DNA from: Halorubrum lipolyticum DSM 21995
GTDB taxonomy: Archaea > Halobacteriota > Halobacteria > Halobacteriales > Haloferacaceae
Length of the DNA: 64,000 nucleotides
NCBI RefSeq assembly: GCF_000337375.1
Contig: NZ_AOJG01000025.1
Location: forward strand, 56,166 to 120,165
Direction: 5' to 3'
Made by a program: the position numbers and the translations under genes. Position 1 is the stretch's first letter. Each line of letters opens with the position of its first letter. The notes beneath the pieces are model-generated. The model was given only the letters and a program-made list of their open reading frames with translations, was not told where the DNA came from and made no database searches. Shown in pieces: positions 22,018 through 32,250 of this stretch.

Positions 22018-25000
22018 ATGAGTGAGCAGACGTTTGTATGCGACGAGTGCCAGCGGACACTGCCGCAATGGATGAAGCACGAGGGCCGTACCTGTACGCA
22101 GTGCGCTGATAATGCGGATGTTAACTGGGACGAGCCAGCCACATCTGGGGATGCCAATGACACGGCAGACTCGGGCAATCCGGAAGGCGAGGGCACTGTC
22201 GGCTCACTCCTTGATACCCCTTCGGAGCAGGAAGCTAACGATACCGCGTCTGACTCGGAGACGGCCACAGGGAGCCACATCGTGGCGCCGATGTGGGACA
22301 CTACCCTCGATACTGAGGCATTCGAGCGTGCGACCGATCAGACGGCCACCACAACAGACGAGACCGAGACGGCGTCCAACCCTCTCGATAAGAAAATCAA
22401 CAGTTGGAAGGAACAGCTCCTGGATTTGACGCGACGGAGCAACCTCGTCAATTTCTCGGCAACGAAAACGAAGTCACTTCCGTTCCATCGTGCTGACCCA
22501 CTCACGGTTGCGAACACGATCTTCGACCGTGACCCCCTCTATATTCGCCGTTCAGCACAAGACGAAGAGGGTGGTTCCCCCGCAGATCCGGCCACGTTAG
22601 CCGCCGACGAGGTGGCGTCTATCCGGGCGAACGGCGCGACGGAGAACTCACTCAATAACATTCGCCTGCGGGAGAAACGCTTCCTCCGCGAACGGGGCGT
22701 TGACTCGCTTTTCATCGCGTTCGGGACACTCCGATGGTACGACGTCGACCATAGCGACTCGGAGCTCCGTACGCCGCTCTTTCTCGTCCAAGTCACGCTC
22801 GACGAAGAGACGAACCGAAACGCCGACCGCCACGACTACGAGATCACAAGCGAAGATGCCGAGATACAGATTAATCCCGCGCTTCGGAAGCTACTGAGCG
22901 CGGAACGCGGTATTCACCTCGCGCCGGATGAGGCCTTCTCGCTTGACGAACTGGAAACGGCGTTCGCATACCTTGATGACGTTATCAGCGGATTTGAACG
23001 CTGGCGTATCGCGCCCGAAGTAATACTGGGTATCTTCGACTTCTCGAAGTTCGGCCTCTACGCCGACCTCGAAGAAAATCGGGAGGCCATCAAAGACGAT
23101 CCATTAGTCAAAGCGATTAACGGCAATCCCGACGCGTTGCCCGAGCCCGCTGCCACGCCGAGTGCGGAGGAACTCGACGAACAGGTGTCGCCTGCCGATA
23201 CGTATCAGGTGCTCGACGCCGATTCGAGCCAGCAAGAGGCTATCGAAGCAGCCAAGCGCGGCGTGAGTTTCGTCCTTCAGGGCCCACCCGGGACGGGCAA
23301 GAGTCAGACAATTTCGAACATCATCGCGGAGAAGATGGCCGCCGACGAGACCGTCCTGTTCGTCAGCGAGAAACAGGCCGCACTCGACGTTGTCAAAGAC
23401 CGCTTAGACGATAATGATCTCGGGCGTTTCTGTTTGGAGGCCCACGGCGAGAAAGCGAGCAAGAAACAGGTGCTCGAAGATCTCGGTCGCGAGCTCAATG
23501 CCGATCCACTCCAACACCCGCGTGAACGGGATCGTGTCGTCAACAAACTGGAAACGACGAGACGAACGCTCAATCAGTATAAAGACAAGCTGTTCTACCA
23601 ACCTGAGGGCCAAGACATAACACCGTATGAAGCGTTTGGGATCGTCTCCAAACGGGATGACTGCCCGCGCATCGATGCCTCGTTTGAACAGCCAACTGAG
23701 TACAGTCAATCAGACATCCAGGCGATTGAAGAGCAACTCGCATCGCTGGCAGCCTACGAAGACGAGTTCAACCGTGATGGGAACCATCCCTGGCAGCACG
23801 TCGCTATCTCACGCTGGCAGATTGATACCGCCGAGTCAGTCGAGACGACGATCTCGGAGGCTATTACGACGCTTGAGGACCTGAAACGCACACGGGAGGC
23901 CGCTGAATCGTTCCTCGACACGTCGCTGTCCTCAATAGCGGACCTGCGTGCGGCTGATGATCTCGTTACGTTACTGGGAGACATGCCGGACGTGGCCCTG
24001 ACGCCAGAACACCTTGAACGAGACTTCTACGCGCGTGACGATCGTCTTCAGTCCCTCGCCGCGAAGAGCCGTGAACTCACCGAGAAGCGAAGTGACCTCA
24101 CTGAACACTACGAGGAATCGATCTTTAGTACGGATGCCACCGAACTTCACGGCGAGTTGAGTGGTTACGGTATACTCCGATACGTGAGTCCCTCGTATCG
24201 GCGGCTCAAGAAACGCATTCTCTCACACGCAGCTGATGGCTACCGGCCGGGTATCGAGGGACTCCGATCGGACACGAAGGCGTTGATGCGCGTCGATGCC
24301 CTCGCGGACGAAGTTGAGGAGTACGATGCGATGACTGACCAGCTTGGTCATCTCTACGATGGGCCGACGACGGATTGGGAGACAGTATTGGACACCCAGA
24401 CGTGGGTGGCTGCCATCGCAGCCAACGATCTCGTAGACGCAGACGTCCTAGATGAGTTAGTCCTCGAACGCGATGCCGACGAGACAGCTGCGCTTGCGAC
24501 GCGCCTCGATGGAGTCCTTACTGACTGGGAGACTGCAAGAAACGATCTCGCGGATGTCTTCGATCTCGACGCGGTTTCGATTAACGACGCCGATATCGAA
24601 ACGGCAGCCATGGGTGCGGTCGAATCCTGGTTTACCACTCGATACGATACTATCGAAGAACTACAGTCGTGGATTCAGTATCAAGACACACGCGACGATG
24701 TTCTGGAGAGTCCGGCGGGCGAATTCCTAGAGCGATACCTCGCGGAAGGTCACGCAGCCGAGACGCTCATCGATACCTTCAAGCGGAACTTCTACACGGA
24801 GTGGCTCAACGAGGTGTACTCTCAGACCGGTTTCGACTCGTTCAGTGCGACGGAGTACAACGATTTACTCGAAGAGTTCCGGCATCTCGACCAACAGCAG
24901 CGCGAGTACGCAAAAGCCGAGATTCAACATCGCGTCACGAATCGACGCCCGCAAACGGAACTCAAGCATGCGAGTAGCTCCGAACAGGTAACGCTGCGTC

Positions 25001-27033
25001 GCGAAGTCCAGAAGAGTCGCAAGCACATGCCGCTACGCGAACTCTTCGATGAGGTGTCGACGCTCGTCACGACACTCAAGCCCTGTTTCATGATGAGCCC
25101 CCTCTCGGTTGCCCAGTACGTGCGACATGGTTCGATTGAATTCGATACGGTCATCTTCGACGAGGCGTCACAAATCATGCCACAGGACGCCATTAGCAGT
25201 GTTATTCGCGGTGAGCAGGTAATCATCGCGGGCGACAGCAAACAGCTCCCCCCGACATCGTTCTTCCAAGCGGATGTCGAAACCGCCCGTGGTGTGCGCG
25301 AGGACCTCGAGAGCATTTTGGATGAGGCCTCAACGGTTCTTCCCGAGAAGCGGTTGCTCTGGCACTACCGCAGCCGGACGAACGAGCTTATCGAGTTCTC
25401 CAACGCGAAATACTACAACGGCGCACTTCGGACGTTCCCGGATAACAACGCCGACGACGCGATGGGTGTTGACTTCGTCTACGTCGAGGATGGTCTCTAC
25501 GATCGAGGTGGCTCGAGCACGAACCAACCGGAGGCGGACCGCGTCCTCGAATTGGTACGTGAGCATCTTCAGGAACGGCCCAATAAGAGCCTCGGTGTCG
25601 TTGCGTTCAGTTCTGCACAAGCACAGGCCATTCGAGATACTATCGAGGAAGCGCGTGGCCAAGACCCCGAGTTGGATGCGTTCGTCTCGGAGGATGACGC
25701 CCTCGAGGGCTTCTTCGTGAAACCACTGGAGAACGTCCAGGGAGACGAGCGGGACGCGCTCATCTTCAGCGTCGGCTACGGACCGGATGAGGCCGGCAAG
25801 ATCTCGATGAACTTCGGCCCGCTCAATCAGACGGGCGGCGCACGCCGACTGAACGTAGCCGTGACGCGTGCCAAAGAGCACATCCAAGTGGTCTCCTCGC
25901 TTCAGCCGGGCGATATCGACCTCCAGCGCACGGATAAAGGCGGTGTTGAGGACTTCAAACACTATCTCGAGTACGCAAAGCACGGTGACGACGCACTGAC
26001 TCGCTCGGACTCAGAGACACAGTTCCTCCAGTTCGACTCCGAGTTCGAAGAGGCCGTCTACACAGCACTGGAGAATCGCGGCTTAGATGTCTCGACACAG
26101 GTCCAAAGCTCCGGATACAGCATTGACCTCGCAATCAGGCATCCGGACAAACCGGGCAAGTACGTCCTCGGTATCGAGTGTGACGGCGCCGCCTACCATT
26201 CCTCGAAAACTGCCCGTGACAGAGACCGGACGCGCCAGGCCGTGCTAGAGGATCTCGGATGGACGATTCACCGCATCTGGTCGCCTGATTGGGCCTCGAA
26301 CAAGGGCCGCGAAATCGAAGCCATCGAATCGAAGGTCGAGAAACTCATCGCGGATAGTCCCGTCGCTGATGGTGGCGTCTCGACGGAGGTAGCGGAGGTC
26401 ACTGTCGATGCCATCCCAAAAGACGAACGAAGTGGTATCCAAGAATACACCACTGACTGGCAGGAACCACAGGTTACGACACGCCGTGACAAGTCCTTCG
26501 ACGAGGTGTCGACGCGGCGCGTTGCGTCGACGCTTGTGAACGTCGTCGACGAATTCGGGCCTGAAAAACGAGATACCATATTCCGAGCCGTCATTAGTCG
26601 GTGGAATATCACCCGTCTCGGGAAGAATATCCGCCAGTCACTCAACAAGACAGCGCGCAAGCAAAACCGACGGGATGCGGTGTGTCTTCACGACGGCTTT
26701 ATCTGGCCCGGTGAGCGCCCCAACACGATTACACTCCGAACTAACACTGGGACTGCGAGTCGGTCTGCTGATGAGATTCCCCTCGAAGAGCTCGCACGGG
26801 CAGGCCATCTGATACTCGACGCAGGTACCCGGATGACACGCGAGGATCTCGTACTCGAGATCGCACGTCTCTACGGCTATCAGCGTACTGGCTCCAAGAT
26901 TAGGGCACATATCAACGATGCCGTCGACATTCTGATCTCCGAGGACTGTGCGAAACTCGGTGCGTCCGGCGAGACAATCGAATTTATCGATGTTGACGCG
27001 GACCGTATTCTGCTTAACCGAATTTACGGCTAA
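22018..27033 (+). CDS. DUF4011-SF1 helicase-nuclease (DUF3320) defence-type protein
   Basis: A 1,671-residue protein. Residues ~5-33 are a zinc ribbon (CDEC ... CTQC). A DUF4011 domain follows from ~residue 122 (KKINSWKEQLLDLTRRSNLV). The split SF1 helicase has Walker A GPPGTGKSQT with K428 and Walker B FDEASQ with D1048/E1049; between them lies a ~600-residue helical insertion. A restriction-like MTES_1575/Vsr-type nuclease occupies ~1340-1440 with D1370, E1387 and D1389 in GYSIDLAIRH ... LGIECDGAAYH. The last ~200 residues match a DUF3320-like end. Proteins of this architecture occur in bacterial defence islands and have been tested as antiviral. It is single-gene, less GC-rich than core genes, with a palindrome upstream. 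Confidence 0.88.
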   Translation: MSEQTFVCDECQRTLPQWMKHEGRTCTQCADNADVNWDEPATSGDANDTADSGNPEGEGTVGSLLDTPSEQEANDTASDSETATGSHIVAPMWDTTLDTEAFERATDQTATTTDETETASNPLDKKINSWKEQLLDLTRRSNLVNFSATKTKSLPFHRADPLTVANTIFDRDPLYIRRSAQDEEGGSPADPATLAADEVASIRANGATENSLNNIRLREKRFLRERGVDSLFIAFGTLRWYDVDHSDSELRTPLFLVQVTLDEETNRNADRHDYEITSEDAEIQINPALRKLLSAERGIHLAPDEAFSLDELETAFAYLDDVISGFERWRIAPEVILGIFDFSKFGLYADLEENREAIKDDPLVKAINGNPDALPEPAATPSAEELDEQVSPADTYQVLDADSSQQEAIEAAKRGVSFVLQGPPGTGKSQTISNIIAEKMAADETVLFVSEKQAALDVVKDRLDDNDLGRFCLEAHGEKASKKQVLEDLGRELNADPLQHPRERDRVVNKLETTRRTLNQYKDKLFYQPEGQDITPYEAFGIVSKRDDCPRIDASFEQPTEYSQSDIQAIEEQLASLAAYEDEFNRDGNHPWQHVAISRWQIDTAESVETTISEAITTLEDLKRTREAAESFLDTSLSSIADLRAADDLVTLLGDMPDVALTPEHLERDFYARDDRLQSLAAKSRELTEKRSDLTEHYEESIFSTDATELHGELSGYGILRYVSPSYRRLKKRILSHAADGYRPGIEGLRSDTKALMRVDALADEVEEYDAMTDQLGHLYDGPTTDWETVLDTQTWVAAIAANDLVDADVLDELVLERDADETAALATRLDGVLTDWETARNDLADVFDLDAVSINDADIETAAMGAVESWFTTRYDTIEELQSWIQYQDTRDDVLESPAGEFLERYLAEGHAAETLIDTFKRNFYTEWLNEVYSQTGFDSFSATEYNDLLEEFRHLDQQQREYAKAEIQHRVTNRRPQTELKHASSSEQVTLRREVQKSRKHMPLRELFDEVSTLVTTLKPCFMMSPLSVAQYVRHGSIEFDTVIFDEASQIMPQDAISSVIRGEQVIIAGDSKQLPPTSFFQADVETARGVREDLESILDEASTVLPEKRLLWHYRSRTNELIEFSNAKYYNGALRTFPDNNADDAMGVDFVYVEDGLYDRGGSSTNQPEADRVLELVREHLQERPNKSLGVVAFSSAQAQAIRDTIEEARGQDPELDAFVSEDDALEGFFVKPLENVQGDERDALIFSVGYGPDEAGKISMNFGPLNQTGGARRLNVAVTRAKEHIQVVSSLQPGDIDLQRTDKGGVEDFKHYLEYAKHGDDALTRSDSETQFLQFDSEFEEAVYTALENRGLDVSTQVQSSGYSIDLAIRHPDKPGKYVLGIECDGAAYHSSKTARDRDRTRQAVLEDLGWTIHRIWSPDWASNKGREIEAIESKVEKLIADSPVADGGVSTEVAEVTVDAIPKDERSGIQEYTTDWQEPQVTTRRDKSFDEVSTRRVASTLVNVVDEFGPEKRDTIFRAVISRWNITRLGKNIRQSLNKTARKQNRRDAVCLHDGFIWPGERPNTITLRTNTGTASRSADEIPLEELARAGHLILDAGTRMTREDLVLEIARLYGYQRTGSKIRAHINDAVDILISEDCAKLGASGETIEFIDVDADRILLNRIYG

Positions 27034-27371: not shown

Positions 27372-28763
27372 ATGACAGACTTCGTGAACCGCTCGGAGGA
27401 GTTAGATCGGCTTCACAGCCTTTTCGACTCGGGGAACGCGGATCTCGCTGTCGTGTACGGGCGGCGACGGCTGGGAAAGACGAGACTCGTCAAGAAGGCG
27501 CTTGAGAGCCGAGAGAACGCGGTCTTCTATCAAGCACGACAGAAGACGCGGGAGCTCCAACTGGAACAGTTCGTCGAGGCTGCGGCTGACACAGTTCCTG
27601 GTATCGAAGATATTCGTCCCGATTGGGAGCGGCTGTTCAGGTATCTGGCCGACCAGAACGCGATCGTCGTCCTCGACGAGTTTCCGTACCTGATCGAACA
27701 GGATGAGAGTCTTCCGTCAGTGTTACAGGCGTTGTTCGACCACGAGTTCGACGAGTCGGAGACGACCTTCGTTCTGGTCGGATCGTCGATCAGCATGATG
27801 GAGGAAGCGACCCTGCTCGGAGACAGCCCGTTATATGGGCGAACGTCCCTCACACTCGATATCCGTGAACTCTCGTTCGACGCCGTGACGGAGTTTCTAC
27901 CAGACGATGCGACGGCGGACGAGGTCGTTCGCGCGTGGAGCGTGTTCGGTGGCGTTCCCTACTACCTCGAGGAACTCGACGCCGATCGGTCGCTCGGCGA
28001 GAACATCCAGCAGACGGTGCTGACTCGTCACGGGTCACTCCGCAACGAGCCGGAGCACGTCCTCCGGATGGAATTGACGGAGCCGACGCGCTACTTCTCG
28101 ATCCTCGAAGCGATCGCCGGCGGGGCGACCGGCCGCAACGAGATCGCCGGCGTGACCGGTATCGACTACAACCAACTATCGACGTATTTGGACCGTCTTT
28201 CTCGGCTTCGGCTCATCGAGCGGCATGTTCCAGTGACTGAGAAACCCGAACGGTCCAAGCGAAGCCAGTACCGGCTGCGTGACCCCTTGTTCCGGTTCTG
28301 GTTCCGGTTCCTGTACGGGAGTTCGGATCGCTACGATCAGTTCGGCGACGGGACCTACGAACGACTCGTCGAACCGGACATGGCCGACTTCGTCGCTCCC
28401 GCGTTCGAGCAACTGTGCTGTGAGTCCCTGTGGACGCTGTACGACGAGACGCCGATCGTCGATGTCGGGCAGTGGTGGTATCAGGACCACGAGATCGACG
28501 TCGTCGGACTCACTGACGAAAACACACTCGTCGTGGGCGAGTGTAAGTATCAAGAATCGCCGCTCGACTACAGCGCGCTGGCATCGCTGGAGACACACGT
28601 TGAGGAACTCCGATGGCAGCCGTCGGGCGGTGGCAAGCGGACCGTCGAATACGCGCTGTTCTCTCGGAGCGGGTTTACTGACAGCATCCGCGAAGCTGCC
28701 GCCGATCGCGACGATGTACGTCTTTACACGATCGACGACATCGTCGCCGCGCTCGGAGAGTAG
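27372..28763 (+). CDS. Archaeal AAA+ ATPase with DUF234-type nuclease-like tail
   Basis: A 463-residue protein of the archaeal 'ATP-binding protein' class (STAND/MNS-like). Walker A is GRRRLGKT at residues 30-37, Walker B IVVLDEFPYL, and a winged helix follows at ~residue 235-285 (ILEAIAGGATGRNEIAGVTG). The C-terminal DUF234-like domain has D376 in HEIDVVGL and E390-C-K392 in VVGECKYQ, an intact restriction-like catalytic pattern. Members are common in archaeal mobile regions. Role (defence, toxin-like effector or regulation) is unknown; here it sits between a defence helicase and an R-M pair. Confidence 0.85.
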   Translation: MTDFVNRSEELDRLHSLFDSGNADLAVVYGRRRLGKTRLVKKALESRENAVFYQARQKTRELQLEQFVEAAADTVPGIEDIRPDWERLFRYLADQNAIVVLDEFPYLIEQDESLPSVLQALFDHEFDESETTFVLVGSSISMMEEATLLGDSPLYGRTSLTLDIRELSFDAVTEFLPDDATADEVVRAWSVFGGVPYYLEELDADRSLGENIQQTVLTRHGSLRNEPEHVLRMELTEPTRYFSILEAIAGGATGRNEIAGVTGIDYNQLSTYLDRLSRLRLIERHVPVTEKPERSKRSQYRLRDPLFRFWFRFLYGSSDRYDQFGDGTYERLVEPDMADFVAPAFEQLCCESLWTLYDETPIVDVGQWWYQDHEIDVVGLTDENTLVVGECKYQESPLDYSALASLETHVEELRWQPSGGGKRTVEYALFSRSGFTDSIREAAADRDDVRLYTIDDIVAALGE

Positions 28764-28864: not shown

Positions 28865-29734
28865 ATGGTGGAGCCGATCTTAAAATGGGCAGGTGGGAAG
28901 CGCCAGCTTCTCTCAGAGATCACGGCGCTGTTTCCGATCTCATATGAGGCGTATCACGAACCGTTCGTAGGAGGTGGCGCTGTGTTTTTTCATCAGGATC
29001 CTGACGATGGGACAGTAAACGATCTGAACACGCGGTTAACAACGTTTTATGAGATCGTTCGAGACCAACCGGACGCCCTCATTGCCGAGAACAAGACACA
29101 CGAGCATACGGAGGAATACTACTACGACGCTCGTTCGGAGTTCAATACGCTCCTTACCCAGTCGACTCTAACACAGGACGAGAGGATCCGAGAGGCGAGC
29201 TTACTATTATACTTGAATCGGACGTGTTTCAACGGATTGTACCGGGAGAACAGTGACGGCGAATTCAACGTCTCTTTCGGACGCTATTCAAATCCAGATT
29301 GGGTACAAGAGCAGCGGATTCGGAAGGCATCACGTGTCCTCCAAGACACAGTAGTTTTTAATACGGATTTCAGCTACGTCGTCGATGAGGCTTCCAGCGG
29401 CGATCTTGTGTATTTTGATCCGCCGTACGAACCGGTATCGAAAACCGCGGATTTCAATTCATATCAGGCGGCTGGATTCGATCGAGAGGACCAACGGCGG
29501 CTTCGTGATACCATCATAGAACTCACAGAGATGGGTGTATCTGTGATCCTCTCTAATTCGCCGCCGGTCACGGAATTATACAAAGACTACGACGTATTCT
29601 CGATCAGCTACGTAGACGCCACTCGTGCCATAAATAGCGATGCTAGCAGCCGCGGGGAAGTCTCGGAAGTACTCATTACAAACGTTCCACCAGATGAGCA
29701 ACGGCGAAAGACCCTCTCCGACTTTACTGAATGA
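28865..29734 (+). CDS. DNA N6-adenine methyltransferase (Dam/DpnM class)
   Basis: A 289-residue type II N6-adenine methylase of the D12/alpha class. The AdoMet site starts LKWAGGKRQLL (residues 6-16), followed by FVGGGAVFF and the catalytic DPPY at 185-188 (VYFDPPYEPV). NRTCFNGLYRENSDGEFNVS is the usual segment before the DPPY motif. Family members mostly modify GATC, but the site cannot be read directly. The gene ends 15 bp from the end of the convergent Mrr-type endonuclease, the standard tail-to-tail layout of an R-M pair. Codons are less GC-rich than in core genes. Confidence 0.92.
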   Translation: MVEPILKWAGGKRQLLSEITALFPISYEAYHEPFVGGGAVFFHQDPDDGTVNDLNTRLTTFYEIVRDQPDALIAENKTHEHTEEYYYDARSEFNTLLTQSTLTQDERIREASLLLYLNRTCFNGLYRENSDGEFNVSFGRYSNPDWVQEQRIRKASRVLQDTVVFNTDFSYVVDEASSGDLVYFDPPYEPVSKTADFNSYQAAGFDREDQRRLRDTIIELTEMGVSVILSNSPPVTELYKDYDVFSISYVDATRAINSDASSRGEVSEVLITNVPPDEQRRKTLSDFTE

Positions 29735-29749
29735 GTCGTCGAAAATCCC

Positions 29750-30787
29750 TCAGCGTGGCGTCGAGGCTAGAACGTATTGTTGCTGGGCTCCTCGGCCGCT
29801 CGTAGTGATTTCTGGAAGGCGAACAAGCCACTGTCCGACGGTTCGGGCACGTCGACGAGTGGTTGAGTCCGAGAGATCTGTTTCGGCAGCGAGGATCTCC
29901 GTAATATCACTTCGGGAGAGAGTACCGTCTACTTCCAGCTGAGCGTATACGCGGGAGATGATCTCGACATCACGGATCTGTTGTGTGAGAAGATCATCTG
30001 CGGATTCTCGATTGCCACGATCGAGGTACGTGAGGTATTCCTCACCGAGGCGAGTGAGTCCCCAACGGCGGATCGTGTGGTTGTCGACTTCGACCTCCTG
30101 TTCTTTGTGGAGAAACTGGAGAAGCCACGCGGCAATACCGTAATAATCCGCTTGCCTCGGATCAAACGTGTCCGTATCTGTCTGTCTTCGGACGTAGTCT
30201 GCGATATTGGGTTTAGTGTCGGAACCCACTCCAACCGCTTGGATAACAGTGCGTATCACCTCAAAATTGTCCGCCTGTGGTACTTCTAGTGACGGAATCG
30301 TGTCGGTGCGCTCCGGCTTCTCGAACGCGCTCCAGAACGTGGGATCGAGTTCGTATGACTCGTCGTCTGTAACGACGCCGATACTGCTCTCGATCATGAT
30401 GTCCGTGAGCCGGTCACCGTCGATCAACCGAATGAAATCTTGGTTTGCGCTTGTCTCGGCGCCAGACGTGAACGAGGATGTCGTGATCACCGTTCCGATG
30501 TGATACTGTTGCTCTGAGAGTGCGCCTTTAAATCCGCGGAGGGTGCGGGCTCCGACTGTGTTTCCAGAAGCATATTGTTTCGCTTGAATGCCAAGCCGCG
30601 CGTGGAACAGTTCTCGATCGATGACCGCGTGAATATCAATTCCACCATCGCCACGGAATGGCGTTAGCTCAAGTTCACGAGTTGGCTCCGCACGCTCGAT
30701 CACCATTTTACAGAGCTGTTCAAACTGCTCGTGGTCAATCTGTAACCCCTTATCAAGCAGTTCCTCTTTTGTCGTCGATACTCTCAT
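29750..30787 (-). CDS. Mrr-type restriction endonuclease
   Basis: A 345-residue protein. Residues ~18-115 are an Mrr_cat domain: FEQLCKMVIERAEP, then D47/D51 in FRGDGGIDIHAVID and Q68-A-K70 in LGIQAKQYASG, followed by ARTLRGFKGALSEQQYHIG. This is an intact D-(D)-QxK nuclease pattern. The C-terminal half is alpha-helical with winged-helix character (IADYVRRQTDTDTFDPRQAD, then RWGLTRLGEEYLTYLDRG) and probably recognises DNA. It faces the Dam-type methylase, so I infer a type II R-M system. A methyl-directed role like E. coli Mrr is an alternative. Confidence 0.85.
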   Translation of the reverse strand: MRVSTTKEELLDKGLQIDHEQFEQLCKMVIERAEPTRELELTPFRGDGGIDIHAVIDRELFHARLGIQAKQYASGNTVGARTLRGFKGALSEQQYHIGTVITTSSFTSGAETSANQDFIRLIDGDRLTDIMIESSIGVVTDDESYELDPTFWSAFEKPERTDTIPSLEVPQADNFEVIRTVIQAVGVGSDTKPNIADYVRRQTDTDTFDPRQADYYGIAAWLLQFLHKEQEVEVDNHTIRRWGLTRLGEEYLTYLDRGNRESADDLLTQQIRDVEIISRVYAQLEVDGTLSRSDITEILAAETDLSDSTTRRRARTVGQWLVRLPEITTSGRGAQQQYVLASTPR

Positions 30788-30858: not shown

Positions 30859-31899
30859 TCAATCTTTGGTTGAGAAATCTAGCTCCGAATACTCGTACGC
30901 GTAGCACTTGATCCCGTTCTCCTCACAGTGCGTCGCAAGCTCTCCCGGCGATACATCCTCCTCCTCGAAATCACCCAAGAACGCGACTGTCACGTTGTCA
31001 TAGCCACGGTCCTCAGAGCCTTCGACCACGACGGCCGTGTTCGGATCGCTGTGGCTGGTCTTGATTACCTGGTCCCCCGGCACATATGGGTTCTCCGCGA
31101 ACGCGAGGTTCTCGTGTTTGTACGTCCAGAGCTTGATGTCCTGGTCGTCACAGTACGACGCGAGGATCGCGGGGTGATAATCGCGCCACGCACCTGGTCC
31201 CTCGTCGAGCGAACTCGGGAACGCGACCCGTACCGCCTCTCCGTCCATTTCGTGTCCGAACGCCCCGGTGTTCTGCTCCGGCGGTAACACTTCGACGACG
31301 ATCCCCACCGACGGCTCCGCGTCGCCGGCCTTCACCACTCGATCCCCCGGTGAGAACGGATTCTCCGGCTTCTGATTCATGTGGGCGGTGTTAGGCCCGA
31401 GATCGATCAGTTCGTTCATCGGTCGTGCCGCGAGGTGGTCGAGCTTCTCCGGAGAATCGCCCGAGAAGGCCGCCTCGGTTTCGACCTTCGACTTTAGGGT
31501 CTCGAGGCGCTCCCACCCGAGTAGCATCAGACTGTCCTCGTTGTCCCGGTGCCAGACCATCACCACGATGTCATCGTCGGGGTCCCGTTCGACCAGCGAC
31601 TCGGGAAGAAAGGCAGAGACGTCCCGTGAGGACTTCACGTCGACCGTGTAGCCGAACACCTCGAAGTCGTGTCCGGAGAAGCTCTCGGGGTTACACCGCC
31701 GGATCGCCTCCTCGTTTTCCCACTCCCACATCTCGACGGGGAGGTACTCGCGACAGAACTGCTCAAACGCGAGCTCGCCGAGGTTACCGATCCGCTTGAC
31801 GTCCAGGTCGTCGGCTCCCTGAATGACTGCCTGGTGGTGGGCTCGCTCGTGATCGATCTCGTCCGGGGTGAACCGATACATTACCTGAGTCTCAGACAC
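30859..31899 (-). CDS. PD-(D/E)XK protein with two tandem C-terminal modules
   Basis: A 346-residue protein I cannot assign to a named family. Residues ~30-160 have an intact nuclease pattern: E42 in NLGELAFEQF, D78 in SGHDFEVF, and D87-V-K89 in YTVDVKSSRD. Two related C-terminal modules follow, ~179-267 (NPFSPGDRVVKAGDAEPSVG ... LWTYKHENLAF) and ~269-344 (NPYVPGDQVIKTSHSDPNTA ... CYAYEYSELDF). Each starts with a small beta segment like KOW/SH3 or Tudor folds and ends in YxxE-LxF. The gene is 71 bp upstream of the Mrr gene on the same strand, so it may be a third part of that R-M locus. I infer a DNA-reading role for the modules. Confidence 0.75.
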   Translation of the reverse strand: MSETQVMYRFTPDEIDHERAHHQAVIQGADDLDVKRIGNLGELAFEQFCREYLPVEMWEWENEEAIRRCNPESFSGHDFEVFGYTVDVKSSRDVSAFLPESLVERDPDDDIVVMVWHRDNEDSLMLLGWERLETLKSKVETEAAFSGDSPEKLDHLAARPMNELIDLGPNTAHMNQKPENPFSPGDRVVKAGDAEPSVGIVVEVLPPEQNTGAFGHEMDGEAVRVAFPSSLDEGPGAWRDYHPAILASYCDDQDIKLWTYKHENLAFAENPYVPGDQVIKTSHSDPNTAVVVEGSEDRGYDNVTVAFLGDFEEEDVSPGELATHCEENGIKCYAYEYSELDFSTKD

Positions 31900-32177: not shown

Positions 32178-32250
32178 CGGGCGCGACGGGATTTGAACCC
32201 GCGGCATCTTGGTCCGGAACCAAGTGCTCTGTCCGCTGAGCTACGCGCCC
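32178..32250 (-). tRNA. tRNA-Arg (anticodon CCG)
   Basis: Read on the minus strand from 32250, acceptor stem GGGCGCG/CGCGCCC with discriminator G, D-arm TAGCTCAGCGGACAGAGC, anticodon stem CTTGG/CCAAG around a loop with CCG, and T-arm GCGGGTTCAAATCCCGT. No CCA and no intron. It stands at the right edge of the defence island, a typical integration target. Its trailer repeats 13 nt of its own end (32097-32109 equals 32180-32192). Confidence 0.95.

Follow-up and report, generated by a model that had tools for sequence, protein, structure and literature searches.

Gene organization at the tRNA-Arg(CCG) island

The window, i.e., the whole stretch of 64,000 nucleotides of Halorubrum lipolyticum DSM 21995 analysed here, contains an open reading frame at positions 30859-31899 of the minus strand, which comprises 346 aa when counted from the GTG at 31899. 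Since near-invariant conservation in the family alignment begins at M7 (at least 90%) and Y8 (100%), and since the RefSeq start of the orthologue on pHLAC01 lies 18 nt downstream of the listed GTG, the true start is probably ATG 31881, giving a CDS of 340 aa (30859..31881, minus strand), to which the GTG would add six poorly conserved residues; residue numbers in the following refer to the 346-aa (GTG) version. Between Halorubrum copies, dS ranged from 0.28 to 0.63 against a dN of 0.014 to 0.062, so that the reading frame is real beyond chance. Alignment, HHalign, and the comparison of dN with dS also confirmed what an earlier note on this DNA had described, namely an E42/D78/D87-x-K89 nuclease core followed by two modules that each open with NP-x2-PGD-x-V.

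Directly downstream on the same strand, as that note had stated, and separated by a gap of 71 bp, follows a gene for an Mrr-type endonuclease (29750..30787, minus strand; Mrr_cat and DUF7226), a kind of neighbor that was only found in Halorubrum and Halobellus. Beyond it lie genes for a D12-class (Dam-like) adenine methyltransferase (28865..29734, plus strand), for a DUF234 archaeal ATPase (27372-28763, plus strand; PADLOC candidate PDC-S27, E 6e-48), and for a DUF4011/AAA helicase of 1671 aa that carries an MTES_1575 nuclease at its C terminus (22018-27033, plus strand; PADLOC candidate PDC-S37, 1480 bits), the ATPase gene being placed between the helicase and Dam genes. On its other side, the nuclease/barrel gene is the last one before a tRNA-Arg(CCG) gene (32178..32250, minus strand), whose 3' end faces it and at which a low-GC stretch of about 19-32 kb (mostly 51-61% vs. 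about 70% GC) stops. No convincing duplicated tRNA end that could serve as an att site was detected in the window. Many of the copies from Halorubrum and its close relatives adjoin the same tRNA-Arg(CCG), and the downstream cargo varies, including the Mrr-Dam pair, an McrB-like gene with a 460-aa partner, an SNF2 helicase, DUF4268, and other genes; in this clade, the gene thus often forms the constant border of a variable island. Apart from the window, the island site with defense-type cargo was recognized at L004, L005, L008, L010, L011, L130, L134, and L136.

The nuclease domain

Residues 7-169 (31393..31881, minus strand) form the nuclease domain. In an alignment of 68 distinct relatives, E42, D78, and K89 were conserved in all sequences and D87 in 67. 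An AlphaFold2 model built on 57 sequences (pLDDT 77, pTM 0.73) placed E42 on a helix and D78 and D87-x-K89 on strands, and model and alignment together agree with the arrangement of the PD-(D/E)XK superfamily, in which a helix contributes the E and neighboring strands contribute the D and the (D/E)xK motif. A Foldseek search with the model revealed NaeI (PDB 1iaw, E 0.025) as the best restriction-enzyme match to this part, and the viral matches included small phage proteins, one of them annotated as a restriction endonuclease. Hence, a PD-(D/E)XK-type fold is very probable for the N-terminal domain.

The description of the nuclease as unrecognized in the earlier note was supported. The protein matched no family in Pfam, NCBIfam, or PADLOC, no PD-(D/E)XK family of Pfam scored above threshold for the nuclease domain, and neither single-sequence nor profile searches returned a significant solved structure. 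Since Mrr_cat gave no match to the protein at E<=10, against 1.2e-22 for the neighboring Mrr, it does not belong to the Mrr family.

All four core positions are also kept in distant relatives that share only the nuclease (L122, L123, L124, and L126) and carry other C-terminal parts, which characterizes the nuclease as a movable unit. A shared nuclease core joined to a different C-terminal half was likewise seen at L121 (5092-7023) and L122 (5251-6318), and at L121 a gene with weak matches to ResIII/STAND NTPases is located 13 bp upstream. With dN/dS values between Halorubrum copies of 0-0.06 for the nuclease and 0.03-0.06 for module 1, both parts are under extreme purifying selection.

C-terminal barrels and exchange of module 2

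Module 1 (31096..31371, minus strand; residues 177-268) and module 2 (30862..31095, minus strand; residues 269-346) start with the common motif at N180 and N270, respectively, and HHalign identified them as homologs (probability 99.7%, E=2.4e-25). With the full model, Foldseek retrieved tandem Tudor, Agenet, Sgf29, ZGPAT, SETDB1, 53BP1, and Spt5 KOW structures, tandem Tudor/Agenet being the commonest, and module 1 alone (model pLDDT 77) matched CAP-Gly, Tudor, Agenet, KOW, and R67-type barrels. The matches are moderate, with best E-values of about 0.001 for the full length and 0.03 for the single module, and the TM scores of 0.58-0.76 are normalized by several small targets. They point to the small, strongly curved five-stranded barrel typical of the SH3-like/Tudor-KOW fold, and both modules are likely SH3-like barrels of the Tudor type, the second one diverged. 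The description of these modules as reader-like therefore holds at the level of the fold, as this barrel type occurs in many reader proteins, and the similarity to R67 dihydrofolate reductase, which merely shares the SH3-like barrel, does not turn them into a metabolic domain. As far as the model goes, the matches fit binders of nucleic acid, RNA polymerase, and protein, including methylated protein, equally. With regard to the aromatic cage of methyl-lysine/arginine Tudor readers, module 1 has four conserved aromatic residues (F227, W238, Y249, and Y260), two of which, W238 and Y249, are without counterparts in module 2 when compared at the sequence level.

That the modules are twins applies to the window protein, but not to the whole family: module 1 is present in every intact member, whereas six intact relatives, including the copy of Halfgib1, carry module 1 only. 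Intact one-module forms were proviral in 6/6 cases and two-module forms in 7/76 (Fisher p 5e-6, not corrected for relatedness); on the tree, the one-module forms need two changes, with long branches at L048, L049, and L050. A decayed stand-alone copy of a single module was noticed at L021 (18435-18743, minus strand), near an McrB-like locus.

Where present, module 2 differs from the rest of the protein in its evolution, with a dN/dS of 0.08-0.24 where measurable between Halorubrum copies. Compared with L008 or L010, the window was 94% identical in DNA across the nuclease and about 90% across module 1, but 67-68% identical over the remainder of the gene beyond the module boundary; against L011, identity fell about 20 codons past the boundary. 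Positive selection was considered as the cause of this divergence in Halorubrum and rejected, since the synonymous sites of module 2 are saturated or nearly so as well, which indicates allele exchange instead of rapid selection. Thus, module 2 is exchangeable between close Halorubrum copies, whose DNA identity declines from about 91% to 67% at the module boundary or close to it. As the strains with an exchanged gene end also differ in the cargo that follows, module 2 may have travelled together with flanking DNA.

Distribution and genomic context

A profile search assigned the protein over its full length (residues 7-344, E 5.1e-183) to PHROG 18072, an already known virus protein family of 'unknown function', to which our analysis adds the nuclease core, the duplicated barrels, the exchange of module 2, and the distribution in host islands. 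The family was matched in 125/391 Halobacteria genomes, all 29 positives in a phylum-wide draw of 393 genomes came from the same order, and the family is confined to Halobacteria. Its distribution is patchy, and several copies contain stop codons or are truncated. Scanning IMG/VR with the family profile resulted in no confirmed match, so that viral carriage is documented by Halfgib1 and the proviruses.

Overall, 88 distinct loci were compared and labeled genes scored within 8 kb; as the labels were partly chosen from recurring neighbors and the loci are related by descent, the following counts are descriptive. Fifteen loci lay in pleolipovirus proviruses and 39 had at least one labeled restriction or helicase/nuclease gene, with two loci showing both, so that 52 of the 88 had one setting, the other, or both, which supports a defense or mobile-element context. 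Among the remaining loci, five had a viral-type integrase only, and 31 were without any labeled defense, viral, or integrase gene. Outside Halorubrum and Halobellus, the neighbor was McrB-like, DUF4268, a Dcm restriction-modification pair, or none of them. Near the gene, DUF4268 was found in 12 of the 88 loci, the NTPase in 15, and an McrB-like gene in 14, although such genes are sparse across genomes: as a yardstick, 97 genomes contained 17 places with DUF4268, 27 with the NTPase, and about 85 with a loosely defined McrB-like gene. When the nearest neighbors were compared with far ones, the counts per PADLOC or Pfam family yielded no single decisive contrast and did not serve as main evidence. 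An apparent 'insertion' at L052 turned out to be a run of N and was discarded.

Nine loci (L008, L010, L012, L013, L016, L021, L141, L142, and L150) carried an McrB-like AAA_5 gene (1222 aa in L016) together with a gene for a 460-aa protein beside the family member. This 460-aa protein, which matched nothing in Pfam, NCBIfam, or PADLOC, is possibly an unrecognized McrC-like partner.

Fourteen pleolipovirus proviruses were sampled by strong NTPase matches (E < 1e-70), and the gene was located at most 2.6 kb from the viral NTPase in eight of them (G083, G016, G041, twice in G059, G028, G064, and G063), often between NTPase and integrase. In the induced provirus Halfgib1, it follows dcm. This dcm is paired with a divergent gene annotated as 'hypothetical', which PADLOC recognizes as a Type II restriction enzyme gene (E 3e-30), and the pair (L086:8994-11478) is a probable virus-borne restriction-modification system.

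Putative function

Based on its single-gene layout without a steady methyltransferase, its neighbor genes, and the precedent of HHPV4I, we tentatively read the protein as a stand-alone, Type IV-like endonuclease used by archaea and pleolipoviruses against competing DNA, which we put at a little below an even chance; a role in inter-element conflict in the wider sense is fairly likely. The N-terminal domain, judging from motif, fold, and selection, would cut nucleic acid, and the barrels would recognize a feature of the target and bring the nuclease there or license it. Module 1 may be the constant recognition or regulatory unit, and module 2 an exchangeable and dispensable add-on that might tune specificity. 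As there is no dedicated methyltransferase, self would be spared by the absence of the recognized feature from the host, e.g., hypermodified halovirus bases, and not by methylation.

No cognate methyltransferase was consistently adjacent to the gene, the Dam family of the window occurring in 8/88 loci, as expected for a Type IV enzyme; methyltransferases differ or are absent between loci, in contrast to a Type II system with its linked methyltransferase of matching specificity. Since none of the known modified-base domains (SRA, EVE/PUA, wH, and McrB-N) was found with Pfam, NCBIfam, and PADLOC, we use the term Type IV-like, outside any named Type IV family. Invariant or nearly invariant catalytic residues, predicted folds, low dN/dS, the NTPase, DUF4268, and McrB-like neighbors, and the patchy distribution are consistent with this reading; the unusually strong conservation of the nuclease for an arms-race gene, the moderate barrel matches, the lack of a known modified-base domain, and the 31/88 unlabeled loci speak against it. 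That the barrels recognize a DNA modification specifically is conceivable but doubtful. If so, and assuming an enzyme that is active in the hosts carrying it, Gm6ATC should not be the trigger unless the nuclease is gated, because a Dam-type gene co-resides in eight loci and Halorubraceae commonly methylate GATC. Co-residence with dcm argues in the same way against the m5C site of the Halfgib1 enzyme, and methylation of CTAG and CATTC, which is widespread in other hosts, would also be disfavored, provided that the enzyme is active there. Obvious candidate marks would be hypermodified halovirus bases such as preQ1, which makes up about 30% of G in the DNA of halovirus HVTV-1 (PMC6884629).

Two other explanations remain live. 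The barrels could bind a protein (RNA polymerase, an Spt5-like factor, chromatin, or a viral protein) upon which the nuclease acts, possibly as abortive infection. This would account for the absent protecting methyltransferase, and the tail matches Spt5 KOW and RNA-polymerase-bound proteins in Foldseek as well as Tudor folds; however, the sequence similarity of the module profile to the SPT5 KOW domain is weak and not significant (E=0.43), and no partner is consistently encoded nearby in the 88 loci, so that we regard such a gated effector as rather unlikely. At a similar, slightly lower level stands a nuclease that maintains the mobile element itself, acting when pleolipoviruses and integrative islands replicate, integrate, or are resolved and not against competitors. 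Its position near the NTPase in proviruses, often between NTPase and integrase, the tRNA-Arg(CCG) island edge in Halorubrum, and the strong constraint on the nuclease would fit, but 6/14 proviruses do without the gene, which is thus not core, 73/88 loci are not part of a recognizable pleolipovirus provirus and mostly have no related integrase within 8 kb, and many copies adjoin restriction genes.

That the nuclease, Mrr, and Dam make up a restriction system of three parts, as the earlier note had considered, is very unlikely. The order nuclease-Mrr-Dam does recur in several Halorubrum and Halobellus genomes and on pHLAC01, with Mrr and Dam being about 91-99% identical, but both are limited to this clade among the 88 loci (Mrr in seven, Dam in eight), and with 81 loci lacking the window-type Mrr, such a system was rejected as a general rule. 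Moreover, in several Halorubrum genomes the gene adjoins the same tRNA but is followed by other cargo, and a TATA-like TTTTTAT, which precedes the Mrr start by about 30 nt, is compatible with separate transcription. Finally, a reader of methylated chromatin proteins coupled to the nuclease, with methyl-lysine or methyl-arginine Tudor function, is highly improbable in spite of the predominance of tandem Tudor/Agenet matches, as module 2 lacks the counterparts of W238 and Y249 and methyl binding is not implied by the fold alone.

Carrying the Type IV-like reading further, the protein might be a hitherto undescribed exclusion nuclease common to pleolipoviruses and haloarchaeal islands, its specificity set by the barrels, the second of which would be swapped between strains in the manner of a restriction specificity domain and lost in some viral lineages; this extended version we consider unlikely rather than likely. 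If true, it would restrict DNA in a modification- or context-dependent manner by means of a fold not previously shown to act in such recognition, and if the barrels sense DNA marks, this fold would join the small set known from modification-dependent restriction enzymes. A testable role would thereby be assigned to a function-unknown family that occurs in about one third of the haloarchaeal genomes and in over half of the pleolipovirus proviruses sampled. A genetically tractable background is offered by H. lacusprofundi, whose type strain has pHLAC01 with the gene and whose strain ACAM34_UNSW is without it (PMC10544981). That the type strain resists HRTV-DL1 cannot be ascribed to the gene, since a matching CRISPR and further systems are encoded on the same plasmid, and the authors reporting the resistance favor CRISPR.

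Comparison with known systems

By its architecture, the protein is new within a known kind, the single-gene restriction-like nucleases, and its family, as far as catalogued, is PHROG 18072. A candidate for an enzyme that works alike is HHPV4I of betapleolipovirus HHPV4, for which m6A-dependent restriction has been proven (PMC10101028). Both combine a nuclease with recognition domains in a single gene, have no methyltransferase, and occur in pleolipoviruses, and HHPV4I is thought to exclude other viruses. HHPV4I is composed of SRA, wH, and HNH domains, in contrast to the PD-(D/E)XK-type core and SH3-like barrels found here, so that the two are not homologous by domain content; furthermore, where a host carries Dam, the window enzyme should respond to a mark other than Gm6ATC, unless it is gated. 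Mrr-type Type IV endonucleases similarly join a PD-(D/E)XK-type nuclease to another domain in a single gene, but the window protein has no Mrr_cat match and a different recognition fold. NaeI, a Type IIE enzyme, resembles the nuclease part in structure, whereas no sequence similarity was detected, the C-terminal domain is different, and no cognate methyltransferase occurs here. The combination of a TUDOR-type domain with PD-(D/E)XK in one polypeptide is also known from the TUDOR-containing Swi2/Snf2 helicase-restriction endonuclease of BREX and BREX-related systems (PMC12839542); those proteins are large helicases of multi-gene systems with a single N-terminal TUDOR domain, whereas the window protein has no helicase and carries its barrels as a C-terminal tandem.
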